A stretch of DNA of 64,000 nt, from NCBI RefSeq assembly GCF_022201045.2, contig NC_068557.1:10166501-10230500 (forward strand), read 5' to 3'. Source of the stretch: Citrus sinensis. Taxonomy: Eukaryota; Streptophyta; Magnoliopsida; Sapindales; Rutaceae. The notes beneath the pieces were generated by a model, which made no database searches, had not been told where the DNA came from, and saw only the letters and a program-made list of their open reading frames with translations. Shown here piece by piece: positions 27,652-64,000 of this stretch. The position numbers were made by a program, and so were the translations under genes. Position 1 is the stretch's first letter. Each line of letters opens with the position of its first letter.

Positions 27652-28109
27652 TTTTAAAAGACACAACATTATTAAACTGGCACTTTAAACTGTATTATAC
27701 GAAAGTGTAGAAATTTAAATTCTTACCGTGAGTGTAATAAAAAATAAGAAGATTACCAAACCCCCCAACGCTAACAAAATTTACTTTCTTTATAAAAAAA
27801 AAAAATCGTGAAAATAGGATTAGGCGTAGTCTACTCTGCCGCGTAATCCTCCGTTAATTTTTCACTTTCCGTTGTCAGAGCCGCGGAAGTTTTGTTAGGT
27901 ACTGAACAGAGTTAGGTCAGAGCGGGTCTTGGTAGTAATTAGAAAAACAAAAACGAAAATCTCAAAAAAATAATATTTAGCTTGCAACAAAAAAAAAAAG
28001 AATCTTCTTGTCTCTCCGATTTCTCTTCTCCGACAAAAAGAGTCCAAACCCGTGCGCATCTGAATCGGGTCGCGTCGTGTCGTAAATCCAACCAAAACAA
28101 AAAAAAAAA

Positions 28110-43092: not shown

Positions 43093-43124
43093 GGTAAGAG
43101 TATTGAGAGCCTTAACTGGTCAAG

Positions 43125-43447
43125 ACTCAAGAGTATGCTTGATGTCTTGGTTCCTGAATTGTTCAGGATTTATATTATAGAAGGTTTATCGGCTGAGAAT
43201 ATGTTGGTAACTTGCCTCGGGGAACCATTGTCAAGCTAAACAAAACGATCAAGCACAAGCAAGGAACTTGGTTTTCAAGCAAAATGAGGTCATGGTTTAA
43301 GAACCCTAGCAAACAGGACATGGAGATGCATGAGCATGCGTGTATGCTTTCTCATTCTGCCTGCAGAGAATTTTTGGGGCTCTGAAGATGCTAGCATTGA
43401 GTGACATGCTGAGCCTACCAGTCATGACTATGTTATCCAATTCCTTA
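43125..43447 (-). pseudogene. DUF247 relic 1, internally deleted
   Basis: The plus strand parallels the intact gene at 44.2-45.5 kb: GGTCAAGA(..)TATGCTTGATGT, AACCATTGTCAAGCT and GGTTTTCAAGCAAAATGAG. It then jumps after AAACAGGACATGG directly to the segment coding for the N-terminal part (TGCTAGCATTGAGTGACATG). The central part of the N-terminal half is therefore missing, and further indels disrupt the frame. It cannot encode a functional DUF247 protein. Confidence 0.8.
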
Positions 43448-44236
43448 GGGTAAAGTGAAAAAGAAAAGAAAGAAGAAGAAAAAGAAGATTCCCATGACAA
43501 TATCCATTTCTTCTATAGCCAGCATTTGCCAGTCATTGGCTAGCAAGAGATTATGTGACAAGCTTACTGGTCCACCAACCGCATCAATCTTTTTGGACAA
43601 AAGATAACTCTCTTATAACTCACAACTTCAATGGCTTCACCATTGTCTGAAAATTGACAAGTAGATGCATATTACTCAAGTCACAAGACAATACCAGGCT
43701 GTGGGAATCTTGCGGGTCTACTTCTCAGGTCTTTTCTTTTTTGTTATAGTAAACCATCCGGTATCCCAAGATCACATCTCACGTCTTTTCTCTTAACCTC
43801 TTTTGCAAGCAAGATATGTTAGTTATAAAGGTTCAATTTTCTTTTTAATACGTAGAGAAGTAAGGTTACTTGTATATTTAATCAAAGTTAATTTATGCTT
43901 CACATTCACCAACAACTTGAGCAATCTGGTTTTTCCATGCCACATTGAATTCACAGAGAAAGAAAAGAAACTAGATTTGGTATTTACAAGGTTAATAGTA
44001 TCTTTTTGATAGGAAAAAAAAAAAAGAAAAAAAGAAAATGGGTATAGCAAAATGAAACCACCATCCCTTACTGCACAAACAAACAAGAGTATCTCACTCC
44101 AATATGAACTATAAAATACATTTATTTCATACCTGGACTTGCCCAACTTGTATCACAATCTAAGCAAAAGCAGATTCTTGGCTTATACAAGATTCAACCA
44201 AATTAAATTTGGTTTACACAGCATTCAACAATTTGA

Positions 44237-45526
44237 TCATTTAAAAGGAGGACTGGAAAACAAAGTCTGAAGGATAGCCAGAATCAAAAGGATAGTACCA
44301 ACAACTTGAGAAACAATGGCCCAAGGGGAGCCACAATACCTGTGCGTGTATGCATATCTCAAACGAGATCTCCAATGCCTGCAGTACAGGTTCACTTCCT
44401 GGCAAACAGGAAGATAATAAAAATTTTTGACACGAGCATCATAGTACAGCTTTTTGAAAAACTGAGTTACATCCCCGATATTCAGCCAGTTATCGATAAG
44501 GTGATACTCGAAGAGTAACTTTACATCTTTATTGGTGTCAATGAGACTATCCATGAGCTTGGCATAAGAAGTGACTATTGGTTCATAATTCGGACAACAT
44601 TGCTCAAAGCTGATGAGGTTCCTGAAAAGAGTTTCTGTTGTTTCCTGGATAAGCAAAGGTGGGATTTCAAGAACACCATTACTTCTGAATTTTATATCGA
44701 GGATACTAGCTGAATTTACTCTCTGTAACTTGATTCCGGACTCCTGCAACGTCATGGCAGAAGGGCAAATATCCCATTCCCTTTTTCGATTACTGCATTT
44801 GTATCCTTTTTCCAAAGGCAAAACCAATGAATGCCGCAGTAGGTCAAGAATATGCTTGATGTTACGGACTTCGAATTGCTCTGGCTTTGTTTCATCAGGT
44901 TTTTTAGATGAGAAGATGTTAGCGAAGTATTCGAGAGTAACCATAATCAAAGACTTTCGTTCAGAATCAGGAGCCATTGTCAAGCTGAACAACCGCTCAA
45001 GAACCAGCCAAGGAATTTGGTTTTCAAGCAAAATGAGATCATGGTTTAAATATTCTAGAAAACAAGACATGGCAAATATAGGATCATCAGGCTCTTTTGG
45101 TAAAATATCACAGTCTTTGCGGAATAGCTCAATAATAAAGCAACCATCAAGCACTAAAACTTCTATAAATTCTCGATCATCCAAATCAATAGAACCTGCG
45201 TAGCACTGTCGAGCAGGATCTTTGAGAGAAGCGATGGCATCGACGAGCTCCCTCCATTTGAGATGTGGATCCGGTGATCTTCGGAGGATGCCTTGCATGT
45301 ACTTCCATTTGATTCTTTGTGTAAGTTTGAGTTGTTCATTTTTACAGTGGAAAGGGCCAAATGAAAATGCATGAGGGATGTATGCGCTTTCATTATGCCT
45401 CAAGAGAATTTTCGGGGTCTTGAAGATGCTAGCATTAAGTGCCATGGCGAGTGGTTCTGCCATCATATCTTCAAAGGAGGATCCCAATAGTTTTACATCA
45501 ACCACGATCTGATCCCTTTCTGCCAT
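44237..45526 (-). CDS. DUF247 (UPF0481) family protein, duplicate A
   Basis: An intact single-exon frame of 429 residues. It has the DUF247 hallmarks FSFGPFH (near 55), VLVLDGCFIIE (near 122), HDLILLENQIPWLVLERLF (near 160), NLISFEQCCPN (near 320) and a C-terminal membrane helix after SPWAIVSQVVG. Function unknown. The duplicate at 61,379-62,665 differs at about one residue in six. Over the first 160 codons I count about 39 base differences, of which about 26 codons change the amino acid. Two broken relatives lie nearby (43.1 and 52.6 kb), so this is an actively rearranging small cluster. The start codon is shared with duplicate B. Confidence 0.93.
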   Translation of the reverse strand: MAERDQIVVDVKLLGSSFEDMMAEPLAMALNASIFKTPKILLRHNESAYIPHAFSFGPFHCKNEQLKLTQRIKWKYMQGILRRSPDPHLKWRELVDAIASLKDPARQCYAGSIDLDDREFIEVLVLDGCFIIELFRKDCDILPKEPDDPIFAMSCFLEYLNHDLILLENQIPWLVLERLFSLTMAPDSERKSLIMVTLEYFANIFSSKKPDETKPEQFEVRNIKHILDLLRHSLVLPLEKGYKCSNRKREWDICPSAMTLQESGIKLQRVNSASILDIKFRSNGVLEIPPLLIQETTETLFRNLISFEQCCPNYEPIVTSYAKLMDSLIDTNKDVKLLFEYHLIDNWLNIGDVTQFFKKLYYDARVKNFYYLPVCQEVNLYCRHWRSRLRYAYTHRYCGSPWAIVSQVVGTILLILAILQTLFSSPPFK

Positions 45527-45595
45527 AGCAGTGTTCTTCTACTTCTGCTTGGGTTCAACAAGAATCAGAGTGAGAACTTGAAAAGCTGAACATTC

Positions 45596-45602
45596 ATATA
45601 TA
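45596..45602 (-). promoter_or_regulatory. Possible TATA box of DUF247 duplicate A
   Basis: TATATAT on the minus strand, about 70 bases before the ATG. The matching place in copy B (about 62,731-62,740) lacks four of these bases, which removes the TATA-like run. Confidence 0.4.
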
Positions 45603-45846
45603 CTTCGGTATACTAAAAATGCAAATGAAACAGTTGCTGATTTAAATTGCGCATACTTACAACTTACAAATTTGATTCCTGTTCTGATTTATGAATCAAA
45701 TCTTCATGAGTTCTCACTCTATTCTTGAGCAACCTGCAGAATGTACTTTTTTGAAAAAAAAAAAAAAAAAAGTTTAAGGGCGTTAGCAAGAAAATGCAAT
45801 GAACCTTGACCATGCATGAAGTATTGAAGCAACAAATGATCTTTAT

Positions 45847-46062
45847 ATGCATGGTAAAGGATACAAAAGAAGACGCAGGAGAAAGGATTTATCTATTGTT
45901 GCAGGTATGCAATGCCTTTCGCTGATTAAAGATATTAAAGACAAAGCGCATATGAAGAATATGTGGGATTTTGTATCGAACAAGTTTACTAAAGTGGGTA
46001 AAGTTCACATGTACAATGTGAAATCATCCTTAATCCCTTTTAATTTGGAGCCAATCATATAA
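45847..46062 (+). CDS. 71-codon open frame inside a perfectly duplicated block, copy A (function unknown)
   Basis: A frame of 71 codons beginning MHGKGYKRRRRRKDLS with a strongly basic N terminus. The rest contains MQCLSLIKDIKDKAHMKN and ends NLEPII. I do not recognise the family. It lies divergently upstream of the DUF247 gene. It is identical base for base to 62,982-63,197, inside a stretch of about 348 nt (45,771-46,118) without any difference, whereas surrounding duplicated DNA differs at a few percent. TTGTTGCAG followed by GTATGCAATGCC could be an intron end, so this may be a decayed exon rather than a gene. Confidence 0.3.
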   Translation: MHGKGYKRRRRRKDLSIVAGMQCLSLIKDIKDKAHMKNMWDFVSNKFTKVGKVHMYNVKSSLIPFNLEPII

Positions 46063-46803
46063 TGTGAGCTAGCAGAAATTTTAGAATACAGTGGAGATAA
46101 TATAATCGACTAATATGTGTAATTATATTTAATATAATCATCACTTGTATGATAATTTTTTTAAAATAAATATACATGTTATAATATGATCTACTTATTA
46201 TATGACTAATATGATACTTCTAATTTATTTTAGAATTTCTCGTAAGCTAAAGAGGAAAAGTAAAAATCATTATTAAAAATACCAGTCCTGGAGAATTTAT
46301 ACTTTGCTTCGGCTAATAAAAAGATATTGAAAATGCCATTCTTCTTCTTTTATTCTTTTTTTTTCCCTTTTCCGGAATTTGGGAATTCAAATACTTAGAC
46401 ACATTGAGGCATTGATTGGTTTTGCCATCGGAAGTCGGAAGTCTATCGAGACTCGGTCGAAAATTTTAACCCCATCGAGGAATATTTAATTATCTACGAC
46501 CACCATCCATATTTGTGGAAAAAGGATTATATTGAGTCCTTATATAGATTTTAACTTGTAATCTGCTTTGTCCAGAGAACAAGTCTACTATTAGATTAAG
46601 GATTTACAGGCTCAGTTTGCCATATTTTTCAATTAGAATTTATTTAAGTAGTACTTTTTCTTAATAAAATTTTTACCAATAAAATTTAATTGTTTATTTG
46701 TCGACAAAAAAATTTAAAGTTATATTATTAAAAGAAATAAATAAGGTGGTGAAATAAATGAATTATGTTTTAGGTAGTTCAACATTTTAAAAAAAATTTC
46801 TAA

Positions 46804-48376
46804 CCATTACTTCCAAAAACCCATAAAAGAGCCCATAATTAAAATTTTTAGTAATAGAAGTAAAATAATTTATTTAATCATTTACTTAAAATGTTGAAAA
46901 TGCAACCAAACAACATAAAAAATTATAAAAAGAACTTTTAAAATTAAATAAATATTTTTAGTCATTAGATTAGTCATACCAAACATGCAATTACGGGGTT
47001 CTAAGACAAGGACAAATATAAAGTAAGATACGCATTAATAATTAAAAAATATGTAATATGTAATAACCTTTTTGGTCTTTGTCAACATAAAATGGGTGGG
47101 CTATTTTTTTTTTAAATCGATTCTTAAAAGTAGGAACTAAATATTAATTTCCATTAATTGTTATAAAATTAAAGCGTGCTAATGATGGTAATGGCCAATG
47201 GGCTTTCTTTCATTTGCGATGCTTTTGTGACCTTTGGATGTGATTCTAAAGTTCACGGTTTTGCTGTACATGATGACAGCAAAAAGTTAAACAAAGATAA
47301 AGTAAAGATCATTGGATTCAATCCAACAGCTCCTATCCGTTTCCAAAATAATATTATAATCTAAAAAAATCTCAAATCAGATGATTTTCCCTATTACTGA
47401 AACTGAGCTCCAGCCAGCTTGCAACCGTGATTTGATGTCCTTTTTTTTTTTTTTATTTGTGATCCAACCATTAGATTCAACTAAAGAGTTACAAAATTAT
47501 TCGAACGGCGATGATGCAATTACTTGGTTACTAATGTTGCAGCCCCTGCTTCATAAAAAAAATAAGAAGAGGGTAGGTTTTAAAATTTTGACACATAGGT
47601 CCATTAAAATATTTTATGATCTTTATATGGGTCAAGGGTAATTTGGTGAGATGAATATATTTAGGTATTAAAAATATAGATGGATTATTTTAACTTGCTA
47701 AAATACTTTCCACACCCATTTTATCTAAAATATCAATTACAAATTTTTTTCCATTTTTTAGTATATTTTTTTAAAAATAAAAAACGCATTTAAATGTTTT
47801 ACCATTTAAGATAGTATTACTTATAATGATAAACAATTATTTTAATTAGATAAATCAAACTTAACTTTTATTTCTATATACTTGCTCAACATCAAATAAC
47901 CTTATAACTCTCATCTCTTTCATACTTTTTTATTGAAAATTTTTAAGACCTTAATCCACTTAATCCTCCATAAAATTAAGGTAGTATGGTACCAACTAAT
48001 AATTTCAGCAGAATATATAATAGTTTATTTGAATAAATTTACCTCTTATCCTTGGTTAATGGTTATACATTTGATCGATAGTCATGTTTATCATTTATGG
48101 CATCTGCGTTTTTACATTTACGTGATTAATTTGTGTAATATTCACATAAAAAAATGAAAATATTCTGGTGGTGATTGATGAATCTGTAAATCAAAATTTT
48201 TTTTCCCTAAATATGAATTTTAAAACAAATGTTGAACTTCCATGAATTTTATGAGCTTATGTTTTTTCTTATACTAGAAAGATTAGTTAATAAGAACATG
48301 AAGATGGAGGGAAAAAAAGGGGAAATTTATGGATCTAACCACTTAAAAAATAAAAAAAAGAATACTATTTGGTGGG
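46804..48376. other. Gene-free AT-rich stretch
   Basis: No protein-like frame recognised; only homopolymer runs and AT-rich DNA. Confidence 0.4.
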
Positions 48377-48545
48377 TGTGTAGAGGAAATTAAAATCTAT
48401 AGACATTTTTGAATAGAACATCCCTTTAGAATTCTTATCATAAATGTGAAAACAGGTGTGTAGAAAAAATTAAAATCTATAGACATTTTTTAATAGAACA
48501 TCACTTTAGAATTCTTATCATAAATCTAAAAGCTTGTGTAGAAAG
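48377..48545. repeat. 80-bp tandem repeat, two copies plus a remnant
   Basis: Unit 1 starts at 48,377 and unit 2 at 48,457; both open TGTGTAGA(G/A)(G/A)AAATTAAAA and contain AGAATTCTTATCATAAAT. A third start (TGTGTAGAAA) at 48,535 is cut short near the LTR element. Confidence 0.8.
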
Positions 48546-48559
48546 CTTCTTTTCGCTCT

Positions 48560-49027
48560 TGATAAGGAGCAATCATAGTCACTGGAGCCACGCAAGTCCA
48601 GCAGAGGGCATAAGCCAAATCCCAAGTACATGACGTGAAGACTTGAGCTTTGTCCTTGCATGGTTCATGCATGCATGAGTTCATGAATCAAAGTTGTTAG
48701 AGCAAGAATCAAGGGATTTGATAGCTTCAACAATCGTGCAAGGATTGTGGATAAGATCAAATCCTTAGGATTGAGGATAAGATCAAATTCTTAGTAGTTG
48801 TTGTTTAGCCTTGTGTTTCGTAAAAGTAGCAAGGGTATTATTTCAGTTTACGTATCTTGATTACAACTGAGATTGTGGGCTGAGTTTATTATGTTAGTAT
48901 TATAAATAAAGGCTCCGGCATAATAAAAGGGCATTCAGTTAATTAAATCAATTTATCTTGGTTTTTTTTCTCGCCATAACCAGAAAAACTCTTGTGATTG
49001 TTAGCTAACTTTGGTTGGGACATATCA
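48560..49027 (+). repeat. Left LTR of the gag-only element
   Basis: 468 bp, TG...CA borders. It is slightly longer than the right LTR because of a local duplication (GCATGCATGAGTTCATGA). Confidence 0.92.
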
Positions 49028-49051
49028 TTTGGTATCAGAGCTAGGCTATCA

Positions 49052-50101
49052 ATGACGACTAACAAGGAACGCATGGAACGAATTGAAGTTGATCTTGGGA
49101 GCTTGCAGGACATAATGTAATGGATGGAGGTGGGAATCAATGACAAGTTGCAGCGTCTTGAGGAGTCAATAAGCAAACTTGTGGAATCAAACAATACAAC
49201 CAAGGGCACCACCAGTCATGACTCAGTTGAAAATTTAGATTCTACAAAACTTGTTCGTGAGGAAAGAGATGCAGGGCGGCACATGCTTCCAACATGGATT
49301 ACCAAGCTAGAATTTCCCCATTTCGCCGGCGATGATCCAACAGAATAGTACAACATGGTGTCTCAGAACTTTGAATATAAGGAAATTATGGATGAACACA
49401 AGGTAACTTTAGCTGCATATCACTTGGAGGGAAAGGCAAATCAGTGGTGGCAATGGATGCGAAGGACTTGTGAAGAAGAAAAGCCACCAGTTACGTGGAA
49501 AATATTCGTTGAGGAACTATGAGCACGTTTTGGGCCGACAGAGTGTGAGTATTTTGATGAAGCTTTATCTCGGGTCATGCAGACGAGATCGCTGCGTGAA
49601 TATCAGAAGGAGTTCAAAAGGCTTGGGAACCGAGTTCATGGGTGGTCTTAAAAAGCATTGGTGGGAACATTTATGGTGGGCTTGAAACCAGAGATTGCAG
49701 AAGACATCCGTATGTTTAGACCCCGCACATTGAAGGAAGCCATTAGTCTAGCACATATGAAGGATGATCAAATATTACGACAGAAGAGAATGATCATATC
49801 ACCAATTCCTATTTGTTCCCCATTTGCTTCGAATCGAGCCACACCAACAACACCTTATAAGAGGCTATCATAGGAAGAGATGCAGAGGAGGCGAGCCCAA
49901 GAATTGTGCTTCAATTGTAATGACAAATTCACCGTTGGCCACAAGTGTACCAAGGCACATTTATTGATCCTGAAATGCGAAACAACACCGGAAGAGGGTT
50001 TGTATGAAGAATTTGTGGTAGAGGAACTACATGGAGAAGAAAACAAAGGAGAACAACATGGAAAGACACGACATTGCTACAACAATAATTTCCTCACATG
50101 A
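49052..50101 (+). pseudogene. Retrotransposon gag, one frame with five internal stops
   Basis: The first ATG after the primer-binding site is at 49052. One frame stays in register for 349 codons to a TGA at 50099-50101. Within it five stops occur at 49118, 49346, 49520, 49649 and 49871, and no frameshift is needed. Typical Ty3/gypsy Gag features are seen: LPTWITKLEFPHFAG and, later, EGKANQWWQWM; the region EYQKEFKRLGNRV; and a zinc knuckle of the LCFNCNDKFTVGHKC form. Each stop is one transition away from a common Gln, Arg or Trp codon, a decay pattern expected from deamination of methylated cytosines. Confidence 0.88.
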
Positions 50102-50125
50102 CCCTTGAGGACAAGGGTGCTCTCC

Positions 50126-50134
50126 GGGGAGGGG
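50126..50134 (+). other. Polypurine tract of the gag-only element
   Basis: GGGGAGGGG five bases before the right LTR; the plus-strand priming site of the element. Confidence 0.8.
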
Positions 50135-50138
50135 CTAA

Positions 50139-50589
50139 TGATAAGGAGCAATCACAGTCATTGGAGCCACGCAAGTCCAGCAGAGGGCATAAGCCAAATC
50201 CCAAGTACATGACGTGAAGACTTGAGCTTTGTCCTTGCATGGTTCATGAATCAAAGTTGTTAGAGCAAGAATCAAGGGATTTGATAGCTTTAACAATCGT
50301 GCAAGGATTGTGGATAAGATCAAATCCTTAGGATTGAGGATAAGATCAAATTCTTAGTAGTTGTTGTTTAGCTTTGTGTTTCGTAAAAGTAGCAAGGGTG
50401 TTATTTCAGTTTACGTATCTTGATTACAGCCGAGATTGTGGGCTGAGTTTGTTATGTTAGTATTATAAATAAAGGCTCCAGCATAATAAAAGGGCATTCA
50501 GTCAATTAAATCAATTCATCTTGGTTTTTTTCTTGCCATAAGCAGAAAAACTCTTGTGATTGTTAGCTAACTTTGGTTGGGACCTATCA
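50139..50589 (+). repeat. Right LTR of the gag-only element
   Basis: 451 bp, nearly identical to the left LTR with a handful of substitutions and one indel of about 14-16 bp. Confidence 0.92.
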
Positions 50590-50810
50590 GCTCTCAATCA
50601 CATCAATCAAATAAGCCATGCACTATGATCGGAATGCAAAATTTGATGATTGGATTTTGCCGTAACTCGCCAAGGAATTTATTGATCATATTTAGAATAT
50701 AGAAAGTAAACTGCAAATATTACAAATATAAGTTTTTTAAGGGATTAACTAGATTAGTGAAATGGCAGTTAGTGAAATGGCAGTTCTTCTATATGTTGAC
50801 AAGAGTACAC

Positions 50811-51534
50811 TAAGGGCATGCTTTGTGTGCCGGATAAGATATAATAGGATAGGATGAAATAGGATATGTTTATATTTAATATTATTTCATATTTTGTGAT
50901 AAATTAAATTAGATTACAATAATATCGTTTGTGTTTAGTGTAACGTAGGATGGATAAGGTTTAATGTAAATTTCAACACTATTAAAATCAAAAAATAAAT
51001 ATTAAATAAATGTTTGGATAGTAATTTAAATTTCATTATAGAGTTTATAAATAATATTTTCAAAATAATAAATTTATATATTTAAATTTAAAATTATGTA
51101 AAATTACTTATTCCTTATCACATATATGGAGTTAAGATAATATTTGAGAAAGTGTTATCTCAATTATTTATTTAATGTGAAAAAATAAATTGTATAACAT
51201 TTATTCTATTACTTACATTTAAAATACAAAGAATCAATAATAACTTAAATTAATAGATTAGAGAGAATCATCTTTCAAAAAAAAATTAAGATTAACTAAT
51301 TTTTGGGGTGTCCAACATAGTCCTTTTATCTCATGTTGTTAGCATAAGATATAGTCTAGAAAACTTATTCGAAGGGTCCCCTTAGGGAAAAAAATATTAT
51401 TATTATATGAGAATTTAGTTGGCACAAGCTGTATTATTTTTAATTTACTTATTCACACTAAACACTATATTGGGATTAAATTTTAGTAAAATAATCCTAT
51501 TTCACCATCTTTAACCGCACTCATTATGCCCTAA
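50811..51534. mobile_element. Tourist-like (PIF/Harbinger) MITE
   Basis: The element is 50814-51531 (718 bp). Ends are GGGCATGCTTTGTGTG and, from the other strand, GGGCATAATGAGTGCG, with further inverted similarity around GAAATAGGAT. The 3-bp TAA flanks both sides (50811-50813 and 51532-51534), which fits the TWA target of PIF/Harbinger elements. There is no coding capacity. Confidence 0.6.
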
Positions 51535-52564
51535 TTGTTTGGATCTTATTATAGAAAGAAAGATATACTTCTTTTCTTATTTTAGTAGTTAAAAAAAAAA
51601 ACAATAGATTTCTTTTGAGAGAATGCAAGCATCATTTTTATGAGATTTAAGAATTAATCTAGTTATGTGGTTAGAAGACTCTCTATTTTTTTTTTTTATA
51701 TTTTAGAAGAATTATAAGTTTGATAATGAATACATTAAGATTAAAGTAGAACATAATGATTGAGGGAAAATATTCTTTTAGAATTTTAAAATCATCACAT
51801 TTTAATTGGGACTTATTATGTAAAATTATTGAAATTTATAGCTTTTAATGTTAGAGAAAAAATAGAAACTTGCTGAAGAAAATACCAAATGTATTTTCTA
51901 GAATTCGAAAATTATTATATTTTAATTAGAGCTTGTTGTGTAAATTTTTTTAAATTTTTAGTTTTTATTATTTACGAAAACAATGGGGACTGTTAAAAAA
52001 AAAAGAAGCCAAAATTAGGTGTCTGGTACAAATGTAACGTACTCCCAACTAAATCAAGTGCAAGGCTTCCGTCTCCGCAATATCAACAACATCAGAATAA
52101 ACTACCATAATATCAGCACATGCTAACATATCCAACCCTTCATGATTTTATATCGCAGCTGCTAAACTAAACATACCATGATGAACGTCCACACCCGCTA
52201 AACTAATCACAGTAAAAAATAAATTAAATGAAGTTTCAGTGAGAGTGAAGGTTGAGGTCTCCACTAGGGGCATCAATATCTTATCATTAAGACAACTATA
52301 AGTGCAAATAGATTTGTACCTTTATTGAAGCAAAATTTCAAATTCCGCCCTTTTTGGATTTACCTTTAAAAAAAAAAATTCTGCAGGTTGAGCTACCGGA
52401 ACTTTTGTTTGGATTTGGAAATCTAAATAAAATAGATGCTGTCCACAAGTCCATATAACTTCAATAAGATCGGTTAAATTTGTAAATAGAGAAAGGCGTG
52501 TTATTAGACTTTTGGGGGGTGTCTTTAGTAAAGCCCACCCTCGAATCCTACACGTGGCAGAACG
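51535..52564. other. Gene-free AT-rich stretch
   Basis: Nothing recognised apart from A/T runs. Confidence 0.4.
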
Positions 52565-52790
52565 TCAGGCACGTAGAACCCTAGCAAACGGGACATGTAG
52601 ATGGATGAGCATGAGTGTATGCTTTCTCATGCTCGGGAGATGCTAGCATTAAGTGACATGCTGAGCCTATCAGTCATGATATCTTCAAAGGAATGTCCGA
52701 ATCAATCGCAATCTCATCTCTTTTTGCCATAGCAATCATCTTCTAGCTCTGCTTGGATTTAACAAGAAATAGAGAAGGAAAAGCAGTAGT
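52565..52790 (-). pseudogene. DUF247 relic 2, sharing relic 1's deletion
   Basis: The plus strand AACCCTAGCAAACGGGACATG leads directly into GGATGAGCATGAGTGTATGC. It continues through AAGTGACATGCTGAGCCTATC to the region of the start codon (TTTTTGCCATAGCAATCATC) and the 5' leader (TCTGCTTGGATTTAACAAGAA). The same internal deletion and most of the same private bases occur in relic 1 at 43.3 kb, so both derive from one already broken ancestor. Only the 5' part is present here. Confidence 0.75.
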
Positions 52791-53184
52791 AGTGAGAGCG
52801 TGAAAAATGAATAAAAAGCTATAAACTAAACGGCGCCGGCCAGCAATAATGTTTGGCATTTAGGAAGTACTTTTACTTGTGTTTGGAAGCAAATCCTAAC
52901 TGATTAACAAAAAGCTGAACATTAATTCACATTACAAGTACTTTTAAACTGCTAATGAAACATGTGCTTCTTAGTTCCCAATCTATTCATAACCAACCTA
53001 CAAATTGTACATTGAATTTAATAGTTTAATAAATATTTTTGAGTATGAAGCAGTAAATTCATTGAAACCTAAACTCTTTTAGACCACTGAAGCTATAAAT
53101 TTTCAGCTTCTTCAGCTGTCAATTTGCACCACCATAGAGTGCACTTGGCGTTTAGAACCAAAATAAAAAGGAGAAAACATTATA

Positions 53185-53815
53185 TGTAAGAGAGATTGTA
53201 ATATTTTTCAATTTTGGTTTGACATTTTGGAATAAAACGGCTTGCCGTTTTTGGATAAAACGGCTAACCGTTTAATTCCAGAGAGCATGCTTTCTGTTCT
53301 ACAGAAAACGATTAGCCGTTTGGAGAAAACGGCTAACATTTTATTTCCAGTGAGCAACTTATTTTTATATTCTGGAATAAAACGGCTCGCCGTTATTGAG
53401 AAAACAGTTCTTCCAGAGAGCGTGTTTTCGCGTCAACTGGAAAAACGGTTAGCATGCTTGAAAATTTCAATTGTGAATGGATGCAAATTTCAAACAAAAA
53501 AGAGTGTATTTGAAGAAGTACCATTTCTAATGGTTGTATTCTTTCAAATAAACATCTTCTTCATTAAAATAGACATACACATTACATTAATATCAGATTT
53601 TTATAGATTTCTTAAGTGTTCTAGAATACAATCTTATTTGCTAGAGATTGTATTCTAGATTTGTTATATCTTGGGGGTAATTTACCATTAAACTCTATAG
53701 CAAACCAAGAGTGGTGAGAACAAATAAAACCTTAAAGGAAAGTGTGCAAACACGTCTCAAATCCTATCAAATTCTCTTGCTGTTATTTGCCTCCATATCC
53801 GAAAATCCACCAACA
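53185..53815 (+). repeat. Left LTR of the copia element
   Basis: 631 bp. The first third carries repeated AAACGGCT(A/T)(A/G)CCGTTT-type motifs; see the findings. Confidence 0.92.
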
Positions 53816-53835
53816 ATCTTTAAGGTTTTAATTTT

Positions 53836-54654
53836 TTGCATATTGAGGCTGAGAAGAATCTGACTTCATTTCTTAATCCTAGTGTTCATCTCGATTGTTT
53901 TGATGGCAATAATTTTATTCGTTGGAAGGGAAAATTGTTCTTCATTCTCACTGTTCTGAAAATTGCATATGTTCTTGATCCAAAATTGGAACCATTTCCA
54001 GAGCCAAAAGAAGATGATACCGAAGTTGTTAAGGCTGGAAGGAAAAAGCGTGAAGATGATGAATTGATTTGTCGGGGTCACATACTCAATACACTTTCTG
54101 ACAGGCTCTATGATCTTTACAATTCTATGACTTCTTCGGTGGAAATTTGGAAGGCTCTTGAGTACAAATATAAAACGGAGAAGGAGTATACTGACAAATT
54201 CCTTGTCTTTAAATATTTTGAATTTATTATGGTAGACACAAAATCCATTCTTGATCAAATACATGAATTACAAATTATAGTTACTAAGCTTCGGGATTTG
54301 AAAGTTGAAATTTCTGAATCATTTTAAGTTGGGGTTATTATTGCTAAATTGCCTCAAAGTTGGAATGATTATAGAAATAAACTTCTTCATAGTAGAGAGA
54401 ACATAAATTTAGAAGAGTTACAGAAACACTTGGTAATCAAAGAAGAGACAAGGTCTCAAGATTCTAAGTATAAGCATGATTCTACTAAGGTTAATGTTGT
54501 TGAAGCTAGTAAATTATCAAAAATTTCAAGGTCAAGAATGACAAGAAATTCAAGAAGTCCAACACACAAAAGTTTTCTGGAAATTGTTTCTTTTGTGGCA
54601 AGAAAGTTCATCGCCAATGTGATTGTAGATTCAAGAAGAAAAATAAAGAAATGA
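53836..54654 (+). pseudogene. Copia gag, broken
   Basis: The frame from 53836 has the copia Gag signature: FDGNNFIRWKGKL near the start, then SSVEIWKALEYKYKTEKEY and IVTKLRDLKVEISESF. It meets a TAA at about 54,325 and resumes as AKLPQSWNDYRNKLLHSREN. A frameshift between about 54,480 and 54,560 moves the zinc knuckle (CFFCGKKVHRQCDC, CX2CX4HX4C, about 54,585-54,630) into another frame. No ATG is visible at the N terminus. Confidence 0.85.
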
Positions 54655-54659
54655 ATTCT

Positions 54660-55103
54660 TATAAGGCCAATGTTGTTGAAGACAAATCTGAAGAGATTTG
54701 TTCTATGATTTCTGAGATGCAAATTGGCATGATTACTGAAACTAATATGGCTGATACTAACTAAGTCCTACGATTGGTGGCTCGATTCGGTGCAACCATT
54801 CATGTTTGTAATGATAAGAAATTTTTCTTATCGTACAAAGAAGAAACAAAAGGACAAAAGGTCCTCATGGGGAACAATAATGCAGCCATAGTAGCAGGGA
54901 AATGAGTAATTGAGATCAAATTTACTTCTGGAAAGAAAGTTACATTGTATAATATCTTTCATGTACCTTCCGTTAGGAAAAATCTTGTTTTTGCTAGTTG
55001 TATGTGTAAGCATGGGCTTAAGATTGTGCTTGAGGATAATAATTGTATTATCTCAAAGAATGGAATATTTGTTGGGAAATGGTATTCTTGTGATGGAATG
55101 TAC
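54660..55103 (+). pseudogene. Copia protease and pre-integrase region, first half
   Basis: Reading here gives the segment around VTLYNIFHVPSVRKNLVFAS, a typical block between protease and integrase in copia Pol. The region has in-frame stops (about 54,763 and 54,903). The protease active-site motif is not recognisable. It ends abruptly at DGMY where the foreign segment begins. Confidence 0.75.
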
Positions 55104-56370
55104 TGTTGTGCAAATTTTATTGAACTCGCAAGTGCACGAATCTATTGTAGAATAGATTAATGGTGACGAGTGTCGATCCCGCGAGGATGTGGATTTTAAT
55201 TATATCTAGAATTAATTTTGTATGAGGGTGGTTGGATTTGTAGTGAAAGTGACTTAAATTATCCTAAAATTGGAATTGAAATGACGAGAATAAATTGAAG
55301 AGAAGTCTATTGAAATGACGTACTTGGGTATCTGGATCCGTATCAACATGCACCATGGGCTAAATATTCCTTATTAATGCCAATTAAATCATGAGGGGGG
55401 TTTCCACACCTCATGAACCACGCTCTAATCAATATGGTGCTAAGGGCTTATCGTGCCAAATAATAATAACCTTGTACTAGAGAGCCGGTGTAACTAAGGC
55501 GGTATCTAGACAAGATTATTATTATTTGTCGACGAAAAGTCAAATCATCCACAAAAATTAGAGGGGAAAAGAAAATAAATTTACCAAATAAAGCCCATGA
55601 CATATGTTGAGACTTCACCTTCAACCCAAGCTGGAAAGAAAATTAGCTACTCATAATTGAACTAGGAGCAAAATAGAAATGTATTAAAATACATAGAAAA
55701 TACAAGATGGAGAAGGAATTACAGAAAATGGATCCCAAAAATGGATTCAGAGCTATTAAATTAGGGGGGGAGGCCCCCTTTTTATAAATACATGGAGTAA
55801 ATCATAGCCATCGGATTAAAAACAGTTTGGACGCTCAGGATTGCGCCACGTCATCAATCAACAGTACGCGGTTCGACCACGCGGATGAACAGTAACACGG
55901 TTTGACCCGGCTTTGAACAGTAACGCGGTTTGGTTGAAAATAATTCTGTGTAATGCATATACCGTACGCGTAAGTTTTGGTCCACTAATATGCTGCCACG
56001 TCACCATCAACAGTTCATAAGAATTTTAGACCAACAGGATCATGACACCTCATCAGTCAATGCCACATCATCGGTCAATGCCACGTCATCGATCCGTCTA
56101 TGTGAACAGTGTCGTGAACAGTAACGTAGACAGTACCGTACATATGAATAGTACCATACATGTGAACAGTGCCATTTTTCTTTTTATGCTCCTCCTAAGG
56201 TTTTCGACCGTTCTGAGTTCAAAAGTGATGTCCGTTTTGCCGTTTGATCTCTCGTTTATTGTGAAATGACTATGGTGCCCTTAATATATACAAAATACTT
56301 AATTAAAATAAAACACACATTATTAAATTACAAGAACCTTAAATACATAAAAGTAAGGGTTGTTAGTAAG
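55104..56370. mobile_element. Foreign segment inserted in the copia pol region (unidentified)
   Basis: The pol reading DGMY stops at about 55,103 and resumes as LKCKM at about 56,373. The intervening 1.27 kb is unlike the host element: it is richer in G/C, opens TGTTGTGCAAATTTTATTG and has ACTCGCAAGTGCACGAATC shortly after. It also contains several GAACAGTA motifs (55,880-56,165) and three copies of GTCAATGCCAC-type repeats (56,055-56,090). It has no coding capacity. A solo LTR is possible, since it begins with TG, but I could not find a matching CA end or a TSD. Confidence 0.55.
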
Positions 56371-56372
56371 AC

Positions 56373-57606
56373 TTGAAATGTAAAATGACGGTTTTCTCCT
56401 TTATAAATATATATTTTCTAACACTCAACATGTACAAACTCAGCATTAATAATAATGATATCAATTTAGCTTATATTGTTGAGTCTTGTGATGTTTGGCA
56501 TGCTAGATTAGCACATTTGAATTTTAGATCTTTGAAATACATGTCTAAGCATGGTTTGATTAATTGCAATGATGTTAAAAGTCATAAGCGTGAAATCTGC
56601 ATCCAAGCTTAATTAGCTAAAAAAACCTTTTCCTAAAGCCGAACGAAATACTTAAATATTGGATTTAATACATACCGATATTTATGAGTATAATGACATT
56701 TTAACAAGAGGTAAGAGGTACTTTATCACTTTTATTGATGATTGTTCTAGATACACGTATGTGTATTTACTTAGAACAAAAGATGAAACTTTTGATAAAT
56801 TTAAAATTTTCAAAGCTGAAGTTGAGAACCAAAAGGATAAGAAAATCAAGATGGTTCGAAGTGATAGAGGTAGTGAATATTTCTCAATTGAGTTTGATAA
56901 TTATTGTGAAGAATTCGGAATTATTCACCAAAGATCAGCTCCATTTACTCGTCAACAAAATGGTTTAGCTGAAAGGAAGAATAAGATCTTTACGGATATG
57001 ATAAATTTCATGTTTCTTAATACAAAACTATCAAACAATTTGTGGGGGGAAGCATTACTCACTGCATGTCATATTCATAATAGAATCACATCTTTGAAAA
57101 CACATGTATCTCCTTATGAAATTTGGAAAGGAAGAAAACCAAACTTGATGTATTTAAGGGTCTGGGGTTGTTTAGCTTTTTATAAAATGCATGATCCTAA
57201 ATCATCAAAGTTAGGTGCTAGAGGTATGAAAAGTGTTTTTGTAGGATATGCTGAAAATTCTAAGGCTTATAGATTGTTAAATTTAGATTATAATGTGATT
57301 GTGGAATCTAAAGATGTTGAATTTATTGAAAGTAAATTTCAACATGATTCAAATATTGAATTAGAATCAATCATTGATCAACCATGTGATAATATACCTA
57401 GTACCTCCGTTAATAATAATAAAAGGAAAGAGACTATAACATCTTTCGAACCAAAGAGGAGTCAACGCGAAAAGAAAGAAAAGAGTTTAGCTCCGGATTT
57501 TATTTCATCACAAGCATTACTCTTCTTAGTTGAAAGGGATAGAAAGAATGTACTTAACAAAGTACCATTGTTGTTAAATATTGAAAAAGGAACCAAAGAC
57601 ATTTAG
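56373..57606 (+). pseudogene. Copia GAG-pre-integrase and integrase
   Basis: The pre-integrase zinc region (VWHARLAHLNFRSLKYM) runs to a TAA at about 56,610. The integrase core follows in the frame from 56,659, with the catalytic D-D-E set: Asp in LIHTDIY, Asp in MVRSDRGSEY and Glu in NGLAERKN. The GKR-type block VWGCLAFYKMHDPKSSKLG follows. The frame ends at a TAG at 57,604-57,606. Confidence 0.88.
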
Positions 57607-58164
57607 TGAAGCTATGTCTTCTAGAGACACTTCCTTTTAGAGAGAGGCGGTAAATGATGAAATGGATTCGATCATGTCAAATCGAACATGGGTCTTAGTT
57701 GATCTTCCTTCAGGATTTAAACCAATTAGCAACAAATGGGTCTTTAGAAAAAAGTACAATGGTGATGGTTCTTTGCAAACTTTTAAGGCTAGATTAGTAG
57801 CCAAAGGGTTTAAGCAAAGAAATGATATTGATTATTTCGATACATATGCTTTGGTGGCAAGATTAACATCTATAAAAGTGTTATTTGCAATTACTTCATT
57901 GAACAATTTATATGTGCATCAAATGAATGTTAAAACCGCTTTTCTTAATTGTGATCTTGATGAAGAAATCTATATGGAAAAACTTGAATGATTTGTTTTG
58001 CCTGGAAATGAGAAAAATGATGCAAGTTAGTTAAGTCACTTTATGGTTTAAAGCAAGCACCAAAACAATGGCATGATAAGTTTGATTCGGTAATCTTATC
58101 TCATGGTTTTAAGCATAATAATGCTGATAAATGTATATATTTTAAATTTACGAATGATTTTGGT
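57607..58164 (+). pseudogene. Copia reverse transcriptase, N-terminal part
   Basis: WVLVDLPSGFKPISNKWVFR and FKARLVAKGFKQR (57,690-57,830) are the standard opening of copia reverse transcriptase. MNVKTAFLNCDLDEEIYME follows, then a TGA at about 57,989 and a further stop near 58,027, after which LKQAPKQWHDKFD continues. Confidence 0.88.
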
Positions 58165-58974
58165 GTGATTATATGCTTGTATGTTGATGACTTACTTATC
58201 TTTGGAACAAATATGCAAGGAGTATATGATACAAAGAAGTATTTAACTTTACAATTTAAGATGAAAGATCTTGGTGAAGTAGATATTATCTTAGGTGTCA
58301 AAGTGAAGAAACATAGTGGGGGTTATTTGTTGTGTCAATCTCATTACATAGAGAAAGTGCTTCTTAAATTCAATTATTTAAAATTTAAAAAAGCTAATAC
58401 CTCATATGATTCTAGTATTAAATTACTAGAGAATTCAGGCCGAACAGTAGCACAACTAGAATATGCTAGTGCTATTGGTAGCTTGATGTATGCTATGCAT
58501 TGTACGAGGCCTGATATAGCTTTTGCGGTTTGTAAAATGTCAAGATTCACGAGTAACCCTAGTGTTGAATACTGGAAAGCAATTAGTAGGATACTTGGTT
58601 ATCTTAAAAGGACCATTAATTTGGGTTTGTTTTATAATGATCATCCTGAAGTACTAGAAGGATATTCAGATGCTAGTTGGATAACCAATACAAGTGATAA
58701 TAAACCTACTTCTGGTTGGATTTTTACAATTGTTGGAGGAGCTGTTTCTTGGGCTTCAAAGAAACAAATGTACATTACTCATTCAATAATGGAAAGTGAG
58801 TTTATAGCACTTGCAACTGCAGGCAAGGAAGCAGAATGGCTGAGAAATTTATTGTTTGACATGTGTTGTGGCCACAACCGATGCCATCTATTTCTTTGTA
58901 CTGCGATAGTGAAGCTACATTGTCTCGAGCTTATAATAAAGTGTATAATGGAAAGTCTAGACATATTAGCTTGA
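58165..58974 (+). pseudogene. Copia reverse transcriptase C-terminal part and RNase H
   Basis: The YVDD catalytic box (CLYVDDLLIFGT) is intact near residue 6 of this segment. Next come FKMKDLGEVDIILGVKV, the ARPD-like block CTRPDIAFAVCKMSRF, and the RNase H domain with YSDASWITN, GGAVSWASKKQ and SIMESEFIAL. After about 58,860 the frame shifts, and the conserved LYCDSEA block continues in another frame to about 59,048. Confidence 0.88.
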
Positions 58975-59664
58975 GACATGAATATGTGAAACAATTAATA
59001 ACATATGGTGTTATTAATTTGTTTATGTTAGGACTAATAAGAACCTAGCGGATCCTTTAACAAAAGGTCTTTCAAGAGACTTAGTTAAGGATATATCTTT
59101 TGGAATGGGACTAAAACCTTTCATTAATAAAGTCACCAACAACAGTAACCTAACTATGTAATAGTTATACCGCTATTCCATATTTAAATGGGTAATAACA
59201 AGTTATTGTTATGTGACTGGTTTGGCACCGAAATTAAATAATCCCATTTGAGATGTTCGGTGCAAATAACTATGAGGTTGAGGTTGAGTATTTACTCTTA
59301 ATGAAGTTCAAGTCTTATAGTAGCTAAAGACATGATTTAAAGCTTCACTTAAATGAACATAAGAAATTGTGTTGTTTCTAACAAGATCATGGTTTAATCT
59401 TGTAAATGTTCATGAATCCAAGATAGAGCACAAGGCCGGAATAGTGCTAAATATTGAAACATAACTTTGAAATCTGGGATAGCTTATATGTGATGTATTT
59501 TCGGTATTTACTTAAGAGACAAAGTTTAATGCTTAGCACATTATTGTCTTGTAAATGCTTTGAAATACATTCACTAATTAAAGGTTAAAATCGAAAGATA
59601 CCTTTTTGCATGTATAAGTTTATCATTAATAAATTTGAAAAAATATTACAATCTAGTGGGGGAT

Positions 59665-60303
59665 TGTAAAAGAGATTGTAACATTTTTCAATTTTGGTTT
59701 GACATTCTGGAATAAAACGGCTTGTCGTTCTGGATAAAACGATTAACCGTTTAATTCCAGAGAGCACGTTTTCTGTTCTATAGAAAACGATTAACCGTTT
59801 GGAGAAAATGGTTAACCGTTTATTTCCAGTGAGCAACTTATTTTTACATTCTGGAATAAAATGGCTCGCCGTTATTAAGAAAACGGCTAACTGTTTTTTT
59901 CCAGAGAACGTGTTTTCGCGTCAACTGGAAAAACGGTTAGCACGCTTGCAAATTTCAATTGTGAATGGATGCAAATTTCAAACAAAAAAGAGTGTCTTTG
60001 AAGAAGTACTATTTCTAATGGTTGTATTTTTTCAAATAAACACCTTTTTCGTTAAAATAGAAATACACATTAGATTAATATCATATTTTTACAGATGTCT
60101 TGAGTGTTCTGGAATATAATCTTATTTGTTAGAGATTGTATTCAGGATTTGTTATATCTTGGGGGTAATTTTTCATTAAACTCTATAGCAAACCAAGAGT
60201 AGTGAGGGCAAATAAAACCTTAAAGAAAAGTGTACAAACACGTCTCAAATCCTATCAAATTCTCTTGCTGTTATTTGCCTCCATATTCGAAAATCCACCA
60301 ACA
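59665..60303 (+). repeat. Right LTR of the copia element
   Basis: 639 bp; the same layout as the left LTR with numerous substitutions and small indels. Confidence 0.92.
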
Positions 60304-61378
60304 TTATAAGCACTTTTTTCCTACATCAAAATCAGTACGTTTTAAACAATGTTTAGGTTAATGTTACTACTTGAAGCACTCGTAAGTCTTGCGTCATGTG
60401 GGTAATTTACAACGCCGCACATCAAGTGCATGTTCCTCATTGGCCAACCTGCAGCAAGGCATTAGTATAAAACAGTCCATTTTCAGTGAAATGAAAAGAA
60501 AATTGCGCGAATCTTTAGCTATCATTCATTGAAGAAACAAAGAAGTTTGTCCTTAACAAGAAATCTGATCTAATGATGCCTTATGGTTATACAAATCCTA
60601 CAGGGGCAAAATTGTTCAGTAAAGGTTCTAAAGAGTAAAGTGAAAAAGAAAAGAAAGAAGAAGAAGAAAAAGAAGATTCCCATGCGAATTATCCATTTCT
60701 TCTATAGCTAGCATTTGTCAGTCATTGGCTAGCAAGGATTATGTGACAACTTGTCAACCGACTGCATCAATCTTTTTGGACAAAAGATAAATCTCTTATA
60801 ACTCAGAGCTTCACTGGCTTCACCATTCTCTGACAAGTGACAAGTAGATGCGTATTACTCAAGCCACAAGATAATACCAGGCTGTAGGAATCAAATTAAA
60901 TCAGAGTGTACTTGTGGGTGTTAAATCTCACGTCTTTTCTCTTAACCTCTTTTGCAAGCAAGATATGTTACTTATAAAAGTTCAATTTTCTTTTTAATAT
61001 GTAGAGAAGAAAAGCTACTTGTATATTTAATCAAAATTAATTTATGCTTCACATTCACCAACAACTGAGTAATTTGGTTCGTCCATGCCACATTCAATTC
61101 ACAGAAAAAAGAAAAGAAACTAGATTTGGTATTTACAAGGCTAATAGTATCTTTTTGACAGAAAAACAAAAAGAAAGAAAGAAAAGAAAATGGGTATAGA
61201 TGAACCTAGCAAACTAAACCATCATCCCTGACTGCCCAAACAAACATGAGTACCTCGCTCCAATATGAACTAAAATACATTTATTTCATACCTGGACTTG
61301 CCCAACTTGTATCACAAACAAAGCAAAAACAAGATTCAACTAAATTACATTTGGCTCACACAGTGTTCAAGAATTTGA

Positions 61379-62665
61379 TCATTTAAAATAAGGACTGGAA
61401 AACAAAGTCTGAAGGAAAGTCAGAATCAAAAGGATAGTACCAACAACTTGAGAAACAACAGCCCAAGGGGAGCCACAATACCTGTGCATGTATTCATATC
61501 TCAAACGGGAACTCCAATGCCCGCAGTACATCTTCACTTCCTGGAGAAGAGCTTGATAATAAAAATTCGTGAGATGAGCATCATTGTACAGGATTTTGAA
61601 GAAATGAGTTACATCCCCAGGATTCAGACAGTTTTCGATAAGTAAATATTCAGAGAGTAACTCTACATCTTCTTTGTTGTGAATGACACTAGCCATGAGG
61701 TTGGCATAAGAAGTGACTATTGGTTCGTAATTCGGACAACATTGCTCGAAGCTGATGAGGTTCCTGAAGAGAGTTTCTGTTGTTTTGTGGATAATCAAAG
61801 GTGGCATTTCAAGAGCACCATTACTTCTGAATTTTATATCGAGGATACTAGCTGAATTTACTCTCTGTAACTTGATTCCGGACTGCTGCATCTTCATGAC
61901 AGAAGGGCAATTTTCCCATCCACCTTGTCGATAACTGCATTTGTATCCTTTTTCCAAAGGCAAAACCAATGAATGCCGCAGTAGGTCAAGAATATGCTTG
62001 ATGTTACGGACTTCGAATTGCTCTGGCTTTGTTTCAGGTTTTCTAGATGAGAAGATGTTAGCGAAGTATTCGAGAGTAAGTGTGATCAAAGACTCTCGTT
62101 CAGAATCAGAAGCCTTTGTCAAGCTGAACAACCGCTCAAGAACTAGCCAAGGAATTTGGTTTTCAAGCAAAATGAGATCATGGTTTAAATATTCTAGAAA
62201 ACAAGACATGGCAAATGTAGGATCATCAGGCTGTTTTGGAAAAATGCCAGAGTCTTTGCGGAATAGCTCAATAATGAAGCAACCATCAAGCACTAAAACT
62301 TCTATAAATTCATGATCATCCAAGTCAATAGAACCTGCATAGCACAGTCGAGCATGATCTTTGAGAGGAGCGACGGCATCGACGATCTCCCTCCATTTGA
62401 GATGTGGATCCCGTGATCTTCGGAGGAGATCTTGCATGCACTTCCATTTCATTGTTTGTGTAAGTTTGAGTTGTTCATCTTTCCAGTGAAAAGGCCCAAA
62501 TGAAAATGCCCTAGGGATGTATGCGTTTTCATTATGCCTGAAGAGAACTTTCGGGGTCTTGAAGATGCTAGCATTAAGTGCCATGGCGAGCTTTTCTGCC
62601 ATCATATCTTCAAAGGAGGATCCCAATAGTTTCACATCAACCACTATCTGATCACTTTCTGCCAT
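61379..62665 (-). CDS. DUF247 (UPF0481) family protein, duplicate B
   Basis: An intact single-exon frame of 428 residues, one shorter than duplicate A, caused by loss of an Asp/Glu-type codon in the KKPDETKPEQ region. All family blocks are kept: FSFGPFHW, VLVLDGCFIIE, HDLILLENQIPWLVLERLF, NLISFEQCCPN and the membrane helix after SPWAVVSQVVG. No stops or frameshifts. Differences from duplicate A are concentrated in amino-acid-changing positions. The region immediately upstream of the ATG is almost identical to that of A, except for a 4-base loss that removes a TATA-like run. Both copies look functional as proteins. Confidence 0.93.
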   Translation of the reverse strand: MAESDQIVVDVKLLGSSFEDMMAEKLAMALNASIFKTPKVLFRHNENAYIPRAFSFGPFHWKDEQLKLTQTMKWKCMQDLLRRSRDPHLKWREIVDAVAPLKDHARLCYAGSIDLDDHEFIEVLVLDGCFIIELFRKDSGIFPKQPDDPTFAMSCFLEYLNHDLILLENQIPWLVLERLFSLTKASDSERESLITLTLEYFANIFSSRKPETKPEQFEVRNIKHILDLLRHSLVLPLEKGYKCSYRQGGWENCPSVMKMQQSGIKLQRVNSASILDIKFRSNGALEMPPLIIHKTTETLFRNLISFEQCCPNYEPIVTSYANLMASVIHNKEDVELLSEYLLIENCLNPGDVTHFFKILYNDAHLTNFYYQALLQEVKMYCGHWSSRLRYEYMHRYCGSPWAVVSQVVGTILLILTFLQTLFSSPYFK

Positions 62666-62981
62666 AGCAGTGTTCTTCTACTTCTGCTTGGGTTCAACAA
62701 GAATCAGAGTGAGAACTTGAAAAGCTGAACATTCATACTTCAGTATACTAAAAATGCTAATGAAACAGTTGCTGATTTAAATTGCACATACTTACAACTT
62801 ACAAATTGGATTCCTGTTCTGATTTATGAATCAAATCTTCATGAGTTCTCACTCTATTCTTGAGCAACCTGCAGAATGTACTTTAAAAAAAAAAAATAGT
62901 AAACAAGTTTAAGGGCGTTAGCAAGAAAATGCAATGAACCTTGACCATGCATGAAGTATTGAAGCAACAAATGATCTTTAT

Positions 62982-63197
62982 ATGCATGGTAAAGGATACA
63001 AAAGAAGACGCAGGAGAAAGGATTTATCTATTGTTGCAGGTATGCAATGCCTTTCGCTGATTAAAGATATTAAAGACAAAGCGCATATGAAGAATATGTG
63101 GGATTTTGTATCGAACAAGTTTACTAAAGTGGGTAAAGTTCACATGTACAATGTGAAATCATCCTTAATCCCTTTTAATTTGGAGCCAATCATATAA
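62982..63197 (+). CDS. 71-codon open frame inside a perfectly duplicated block, copy B (function unknown)
   Basis: Base-for-base identical to the frame at 45,847-46,062. See that entry. Identity of noncoding flanks in the same block means conservation alone does not prove that it is translated. Confidence 0.3.
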   Translation: MHGKGYKRRRRRKDLSIVAGMQCLSLIKDIKDKAHMKNMWDFVSNKFTKVGKVHMYNVKSSLIPFNLEPII

Positions 63198-64000
63198 TGT
63201 GAGCTAGCAGAAATTTTAGAATACAGTGGAGATAATATAATCGACTAATATGTGTATAATATGTGTAATTATATTTAATATAATCACCACTTGCATGATA
63301 ATTTTTTAAAATAAATATACATGTTATAATATGATCTACTTATTGTATGACTGATATGATACCTCTAATTTATTTTAAAATTTCTCGTGAGCTAAAGAGG
63401 AAAAGTGAAAAGCATTATTAAAAATACTAGGAGAATTTGTACTTTGCTTCGGCTAATAAAAAGATATTGAAAATGCCATTCTTCTTCTTTTATTCTTTTT
63501 TTTCCCTTTTCCGGAATTTGGGAATTCAAATACTTAGACACATTGAGGCATTGATTGGTTTTGCCATCGGAAGTCGGAAGTCTATCGAGACTCGGTCGAA
63601 AATTTTAACCCCATCGAGGAATATTTAATTATCTACGACCACCATCCATATTTGTGGAAAAAGGATTATATTGAGTCCTTATATAGATTTTAACTTGTAA
63701 TCTACTTTGTCCAGAGAACAAGTCTACTATTAGATTAAGGGTTTACAGGCTCAGTTTGCCATATTTTTCAATTAGAATTTATATTTTTCAATTAGAATTT
63801 ATTTAAGTAGTACTTTCTATTAATCAAATTTTTACCAACAAAATTGAATTGTTTATTTGTCGACGAAAGCTTTTATAAAAAATTATAAAATTATTTTATT
63901 AGACAAAAAATTTTAAAGTTATATTAATAAAAGGAATAAATAAGGTGGTGAAATAAATTAATTATGTTTTAGATAATTCAACATTTAAAAAAAAATTCTA

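Follow-up and report, generated by a model that had tools for sequence, protein, structure and literature searches.

Recent patchy gene conversion probably homogenised the 5′ region of tandem DUF247 duplicates in Citrus sinensis

The window analysed here is a 64-kb stretch of the Citrus sinensis genome (C2:10166501-10230500; genome of 299.7 Mb in 11 contigs), which contains three full DUF247 genes, referred to as D3, A, and B. Gene D3 is located on the plus strand (3293-4660), and genes A (44237..45526) and B (61379..62665) are located on the minus strand, where each forms a single open frame of 429 and 428 aa, respectively. All three are members of the DUF247 family (PF03140), with full-length domain matches of 369 bits for D3, 356 bits for A (residues 34-416), and 334 bits for B at a curated cut-off of 24.8 bits. 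The strongest hydrophobic segment of the protein lies at the C-terminus (residues 404-422), and a sequence search of the PDB for a solved DUF247 structure gave 0 matches. Proteins A and B share 81% identity. Identity to D3 amounts to 50% for A and 47% for B, and outside this trio the closest relative of A in the set of 43 compared genes reaches 36%. The family is large in this genome, with at least 109 PF03140 matches (103 of 186 candidates scored); its larger clusters lie elsewhere, and A, B, and D3 make up a small locus of their own on C2. Searching the whole genome (300 Mb) at the DNA level, with 40 of 569 candidates scored, yielded no close copy beyond A and B; the remaining matches were to a dispersed repeat, to short pieces of DUF247 genes, and to D3 (67% identity over 455 bp).

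Genes A and B each reside in one copy of a duplicated block, which was delimited by self-BLAST, alignment, and junction letters after sequence beyond the window had been added. Copy A extends from 43447 to about 52578. Copy B occupies 60632 to about 77134 and crosses the window edge at 64000; both are read on the minus strand. Block A contains a 2.0-kb LTR-type insertion that is absent from B (48561-50589; LTR identity 93.4%, GCTCT on both flanks), and block B contains a 9.5-kb LTR-type element that is absent from A (67357-76862; LTR identity 94.0%, with less clear target-site copies). Both of these insertions look younger than the ~10% divergence of the block, as is expected if they were inserted after the duplication. 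Between the blocks lies a Copia-type LTR element (53185-60303) with an LTR identity of 90.9% and TTATA target duplications, which has an RVT_2 match in one open frame and an SH3_retrovirus match in another. Two minus-strand DUF247 fragments (43038-43440 and 52575-52774), which are 76% identical to each other over 128 bp, mark both ends of block A, and block B yielded no counterparts at its own ends.

Alignment of the two blocks revealed a strongly uneven divergence profile. The copies differ at 321 of 3462 aligned sites in the distal 5′ flank (46601-52250; 9.3%), at 114 of 1287 sites in the coding sequence (8.9%), and at 77 of 730 sites in the 3′ flank (10.5%), while the 1.07 kb directly upstream of the ATG (45527-46600) differs at only 24 of 1063 sites (2.3%), or 16 of 1035 when a poly-T slippage stretch (A 45750-45769) is left out. 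The upstream kilobase is thus the outlier, and the coding sequence matches the background divergence of the block. Since the synonymous divergence (dS 0.100) agrees with both the distal 5′ and the 3′ flanks, the coding part is at background level and the upstream part young. A changepoint scan from 46655 to the gene end, with the poly-T stretch excluded, placed the best single step at 45515, where the rate rises from 1.5% to 8.9%; its support interval (45539-45454) contains the ATG (45526), and none of 300 permutations gave a step as large (2dlnL 70.3). These values agree closely with the original prediction, which had estimated about 39 differences in the first 486 coding bases (exactly 39, with no gaps), about 26 codons changed in meaning among the first 160 (25 of 32 changed codons), a 3′ flank about 10% different, and a shift at or near the start codon. 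It had also put about five differences plus small indels into the last 300 bp before the ATG, and we count 12 differences at 296 sites, 8 of them within the poly-T stretch, which leaves 4 and a 4-bp indel. Even divergence across gene and flanks, which would have spoken against a mosaic, was not found; instead, equal synonymous and flank divergence is combined with a sharp breakpoint.

The low-divergence tract covers 45527..46655 before gene A and 62666..63814 before gene B in the segment table of the alignment (minus strand in both cases), ends at the start codon, and contains 25 differences at 1118 aligned sites and 6 indels. The indels correspond to about half the background indel rate and are a point against conversion. 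The tract is not uniform. A three-state hidden Markov model with rates of 0.7%, 8.1%, and 55% had the lowest BIC (3644.7, vs 3649.5 for two states and 3717.6 for one rate) and resolved the region into three tracts (46655-46307, 46140-45778, and 45749-45525), with intervening patches at or above the background rate; the two-state model was discarded because it chopped the alignment into short pieces. The patch at 46141..46306 (minus strand) differs at 11 of 160 sites in addition to indels, and it overlaps a dispersed AT-rich repeat. On either side of it lie two gap-free identical runs on the minus strand, one of 352 bp (A 45770..46121, B 62905-63256), in which a TATA-like TATAAA was seen by eye about 320 bp before the ATG, and one of 200 bp (A 46365..46564, B 63504-63703). 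In 5000 permutations, the longest run did not exceed 149 bp (mean 73), the second 113, and the third 111, so that the third-longest observed run, 103 bp within the coding sequence, falls in the permuted range. Identical tracts longer than expected within a more diverged alignment are a criterion of interlocus gene conversion, and the 352- and 200-bp runs are tracts of this kind. Divergence is lumpy outside the tract as well, with a variance-to-mean ratio of 3.66 over 43 windows and further low-divergence windows at 47068-47368, 51024-51324, and 44799-45101. Smaller conversions may therefore have occurred elsewhere in the block.

An assembly or polishing artefact might in principle have homogenised the upstream region, since reads can be assigned to the wrong one of two similar copies during polishing. 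This is very unlikely, as the tract retains scattered substitutions and six copy-specific indels (20, 11, 5, and 4 bp, and 1 bp twice).

Purifying selection offers another explanation, according to which the promoter and 5′ UTR were held nearly unchanged while the rest drifted at about 10%. The position of the tract, which stops at the ATG, does match that of the likely promoter and 5′ UTR, and the two identical stretches have a GC content of 32-34%, as opposed to 21% in the diverged, repeat-overlapping patch between them. However, an unchanged run of 352 bp far exceeds constraint on the scale of binding sites. Moreover, the identical stretch, which spans 371 sites when one internal 11-bp indel is included, itself contains sequence of the dispersed repeat. 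This repeat lies upstream of both A and B (46068-46250) and has at least 39 other matches in the genome at 74-84% identity, three of them close together on C5. One boundary of the identical stretch falls inside it, with 0 differences at 73 sites on one side and 7 at 109 on the other, and four loci on other chromosomes match 62 to 86 bp of the stretch at 75-77%. A boundary internal to a repeat and matches elsewhere in the genome are hard to square with functional constraint on a promoter, and we consider constraint an unlikely explanation. Apart from part of the dispersed repeat, the genome DNA search (40 of 569 candidates scored) returned no homologous upstream region outside A and B that could serve as an outgroup, so that the conversion is neither polarised nor formally separable from strong constraint.

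Comparison with other DUF247 pairs showed how far the pattern extends within the family. The 43 genes compared comprised A, B, D3, and 40 genes from 41 of the 109 family matches, in 40 loci (L052, with no ORF of at least 300 aa, was left out). Of the 30 pairs with more than 70% amino acid identity over more than 250 residues, 14 were kept (dS below 0.2 and less than 25% divergence in the upstream 500 bp) and 16 were dropped, and near-identical copies were collapsed into independent comparisons. Upstream divergence was significantly below coding divergence in A/B and in L051 against L049 and L053, and significantly above it in L048 against L050 and L054, in L026/L030, in L038/L039, and in L042/L046. 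The difference was not significant in L005 against L049, L051, and L053 or in L050/L054, and both regions were identical in L056/L057 and L049/L053. A family-wide rule that upstream regions are less diverged than coding sequences is thus rejected: with two independent comparisons lower and four higher, mosaics occur in both directions. The four higher comparisons also speak against general constraint on the upstream region.

The second pair with a conserved upstream region resembles A/B in part. L051 (C9:19807052-19810884) and L053 (C9:19913067-19916896) differ at 58 of 1380 coding sites and at 4 of 500 sites in the first upstream 500 bp, their least diverged part, which can be read in favour of constraint. 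Divergence is 1.4% in their downstream 500 bp and about 3% in their farther flanks, so that the coding sequence exceeds the 500-bp flanks on both sides. A search for a donor of the coding differences showed that neither copy consistently matches L005 or L055.

The coding sequences of A and B have accumulated many amino acid changes. The Nei–Gojobori method (NG86) gave dN 0.093 and dS 0.100, hence a dN/dS of 0.93 (bootstrap 0.63-1.52), and maximum likelihood gave 1.13 (2dlnL 0.22 against a ratio of 1). The original prediction had proposed that a ratio above 1 would support selection; over the whole gene neither estimate is distinguishable from 1, and the first 160 codons have a lower ratio (0.65) than the remainder (1.16). 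With D3 as third sequence, the A and B branches have a common ratio of about 1.14, in contrast to about 0.16 on the long D3 branch, and a single common ratio fits clearly worse than two (2dlnL 43.5, P 4e-11). Allowing A (1.63) and B (0.96) their own ratios gave no better fit than a common one. Furthermore, the frames are better preserved than expected under neutral decay. From 49 indel events at 4137 non-coding background sites, 15.2 indels would be expected in a neutral coding sequence, 12.4 of them frameshifting, whereas a single indel of 3 bp was observed. Neutrality also predicts 4.2 stops, yet both frames are intact, and when 114 neutral substitutions were simulated, both copies stayed free of stops in only 1.3% of 5000 runs. 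The contrast between branch ratios and the intact frames show that the A/B protein is not simply decaying.

Replacements are unevenly distributed, with 22 of 79 falling into residues 326-375 (44402..44551 in gene A, minus strand; permutation P 0.0002), a cluster that precedes the hydrophobic segment. Since dS is high here too (dS 0.20, dN 0.24, ratio 1.19 in codons 321-380), this peak partly reflects general divergence and is not purely a protein-level signal. Across tertiles of conservation, the nominal dN/dS is 0.86 in the least conserved, 1.44 in the middle, and 0.58 in the most conserved third. At the residues that differ, D3 shares the state of A in 27 cases and that of B in 14, and differs from both in 37 (P 0.06). 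Across the alignment columns of 37 family members, A is favoured at 42 positions and B at 25 (P 0.05); synonymous sites show no asymmetry (6 against 7). These counts give a weak hint that B may have changed more than A.

Positive selection for amino acid change in A and B, which is compatible with upstream conversion, would account for the raised branch ratio, the intact frames, and the clustered replacements. Against it stand the overall ratio and the tertile values, the raised dS around the cluster, and the behaviour of the family. Among the young pair rows (dS between 0.046 and 0.126, 12 in all), 11 have a dN/dS of 0.55 to 0.93 and one of 1.68, whereas 9 rows with dS above 0.29 range from 0.27 to 0.46. 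A raised ratio is therefore common in young DUF247 pairs of this genome, and the value of 0.93 for A/B is the second highest of the 12 young rows. In addition, selection on the coding sequence cannot push upstream divergence below that of the distal flank, and relaxed amino acid constraint together with selection against truncation fits the coding data equally well. Positive selection therefore seems doubtful. A fair reading is that the duplication was followed by relaxed amino acid constraint with maintenance of the frame; selection for change may have acted on some sites, given that frames are maintained and replacements cluster. The highest ratio of the young rows belongs to L042/L046 (C6:21051164-21054927 and C6:21131502-21135268; dN 0.077, dS 0.046, nominal ratio 1.68).

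A last way to produce a divergent coding sequence is conversion with a further DUF247 paralogue as donor. Between distant family members, ectopic conversion would stay within the coding sequence, because their flanks can no longer be aligned. However, the next copy after A and B in the genome DNA search (40 of 569 candidates scored) is D3, at 67% identity over 455 bp, and the 3′ and distal 5′ flanks of A and B are as diverged as the coding sequence. On this search a third donor was rejected, and we regard this origin as very improbable.

Taken together, these results favour recent, patchy gene conversion over the 5′ region of tandem DUF247 duplicates, with coding and 3′ parts that keep the original divergence, a reading to which we assign a probability of about 0.78. 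The original prediction had offered conversion or selection as alternatives: the sharp boundaries, the exact runs, the equal background in dS and in the 3′ and distal 5′ flanks, and the failure to find a third close copy support the former as the probable cause, and selection for coding change is not demonstrated. Under this model, a block of ~7 kb (its size before the later insertions) with one DUF247 gene would have been duplicated in tandem, and copies A and B would then have diverged by roughly 10%. Later, one or a few non-crossover conversion events between them would have overwritten ~1.1 kb in patches, stopping at or near the start codon and leaving the coding and 3′ parts mostly unconverted. 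Such events may have been initiated by a break in the promoter. The tract would correspond to the promoter and 5′ UTR, so that A and B would now have near-identical regulation. In Arabidopsis and maize, hotspots of meiotic breaks are frequently found in nucleosome-depleted promoter regions of genes, according to a review (PMC6237102), which makes promoter-centred conversion plausible. A study on 5′ UTR introns in Citrus sinensis includes one DUF247 gene.

The feature is real, well localised, and of an ordinary kind, namely tandem paralogues with a 5′ region that was probably converted recently and with coding sequence at background level whose amino acid constraint dropped once it was duplicated. 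In the red/green opsins, gene conversion between tandem paralogues homogenises the flanks while the coding parts stay diverged. The same was reportedly described by Petronella and Drouin in 2014 for folate receptors, with homogenised flanks and diverged coding parts. The A/B pair is similar in that its paralogues are recent and carry near-identical tracts next to coding sequence that has diverged to the background level; it differs in representing one locus in one assembly, with no sign of selection against conversion of the coding sequence. A literature search of limited coverage found no published account of gene conversion in tandem DUF247 genes. The divergence profiles of tandem DUF247 genes can be mosaic, and age and selection estimates from flanks and coding sequences should not be mixed.

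A more specific possibility is that the promoter stays shared through conversion, with selection acting against conversions that reach into the coding sequence, so that A and B would be co-expressed and recognise different partners. The L051/L053 pair on chromosome 9, likewise near-identical beside both ends of a more diverged coding sequence, provides a parallel, and we consider this scenario improbable. If this combination of a shared promoter and diverging proteins is maintained, A and B would offer a compact case for asking whether DUF247 duplicates of non-grass plants diversify as recognition proteins. The S and Z loci of grasses comprise two DUF247 genes and a small secreted peptide (PMC13033167, PMC9623065). 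As described there, the grass loci resemble A/B in having two neighbouring genes, each with one open frame and much protein change. In contrast, A and B are shorter (428-429 aa vs 508-559 aa in the grass proteins) and are set apart by the C-terminal position of their strongest hydrophobic segment. A simple filter on unspliced ORFs, applied up to position 80000, detected no gene for a small secreted peptide in either block; the sole ORF that passed (78623-78784) lies beyond block B and has no partner at A. A role of A and B in self-incompatibility is not supported.

DUF247 arrays in other plants offer further comparisons. In valley oak, DUF247 genes form large tandem blocks for which a role in reproductive recognition is only suggested (PMC9018854). 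As in that account, many genes and fragments occur in clusters in the genome analysed here, although A, B, and D3 belong to a small locus away from the larger clusters. For Arabidopsis SR3G (AT3G50160), part of a DUF247 array on chromosome 3, three sites are reported to be under positive selection (PMC11952752). That array shares tandem duplicates and raised protein change with A/B; the authors of that study expect promoter divergence between copies, whereas the promoter sides of A and B are near-identical. Among duplicated DUF247 pairs in rice, Ka/Ks is mostly below 1, with three above (PMC11184719).

Outside the DUF247 genes, the window encodes a LYK4/5-type LysM receptor-like kinase within a single open frame of 695 aa (34564-36651). 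Two imperfect palindromes are located at 32298-32916 (644 alignment columns, 75% self-complementary) and 27432-27652 (223 columns, 77%) and are possibly foldback or MITE-type elements.
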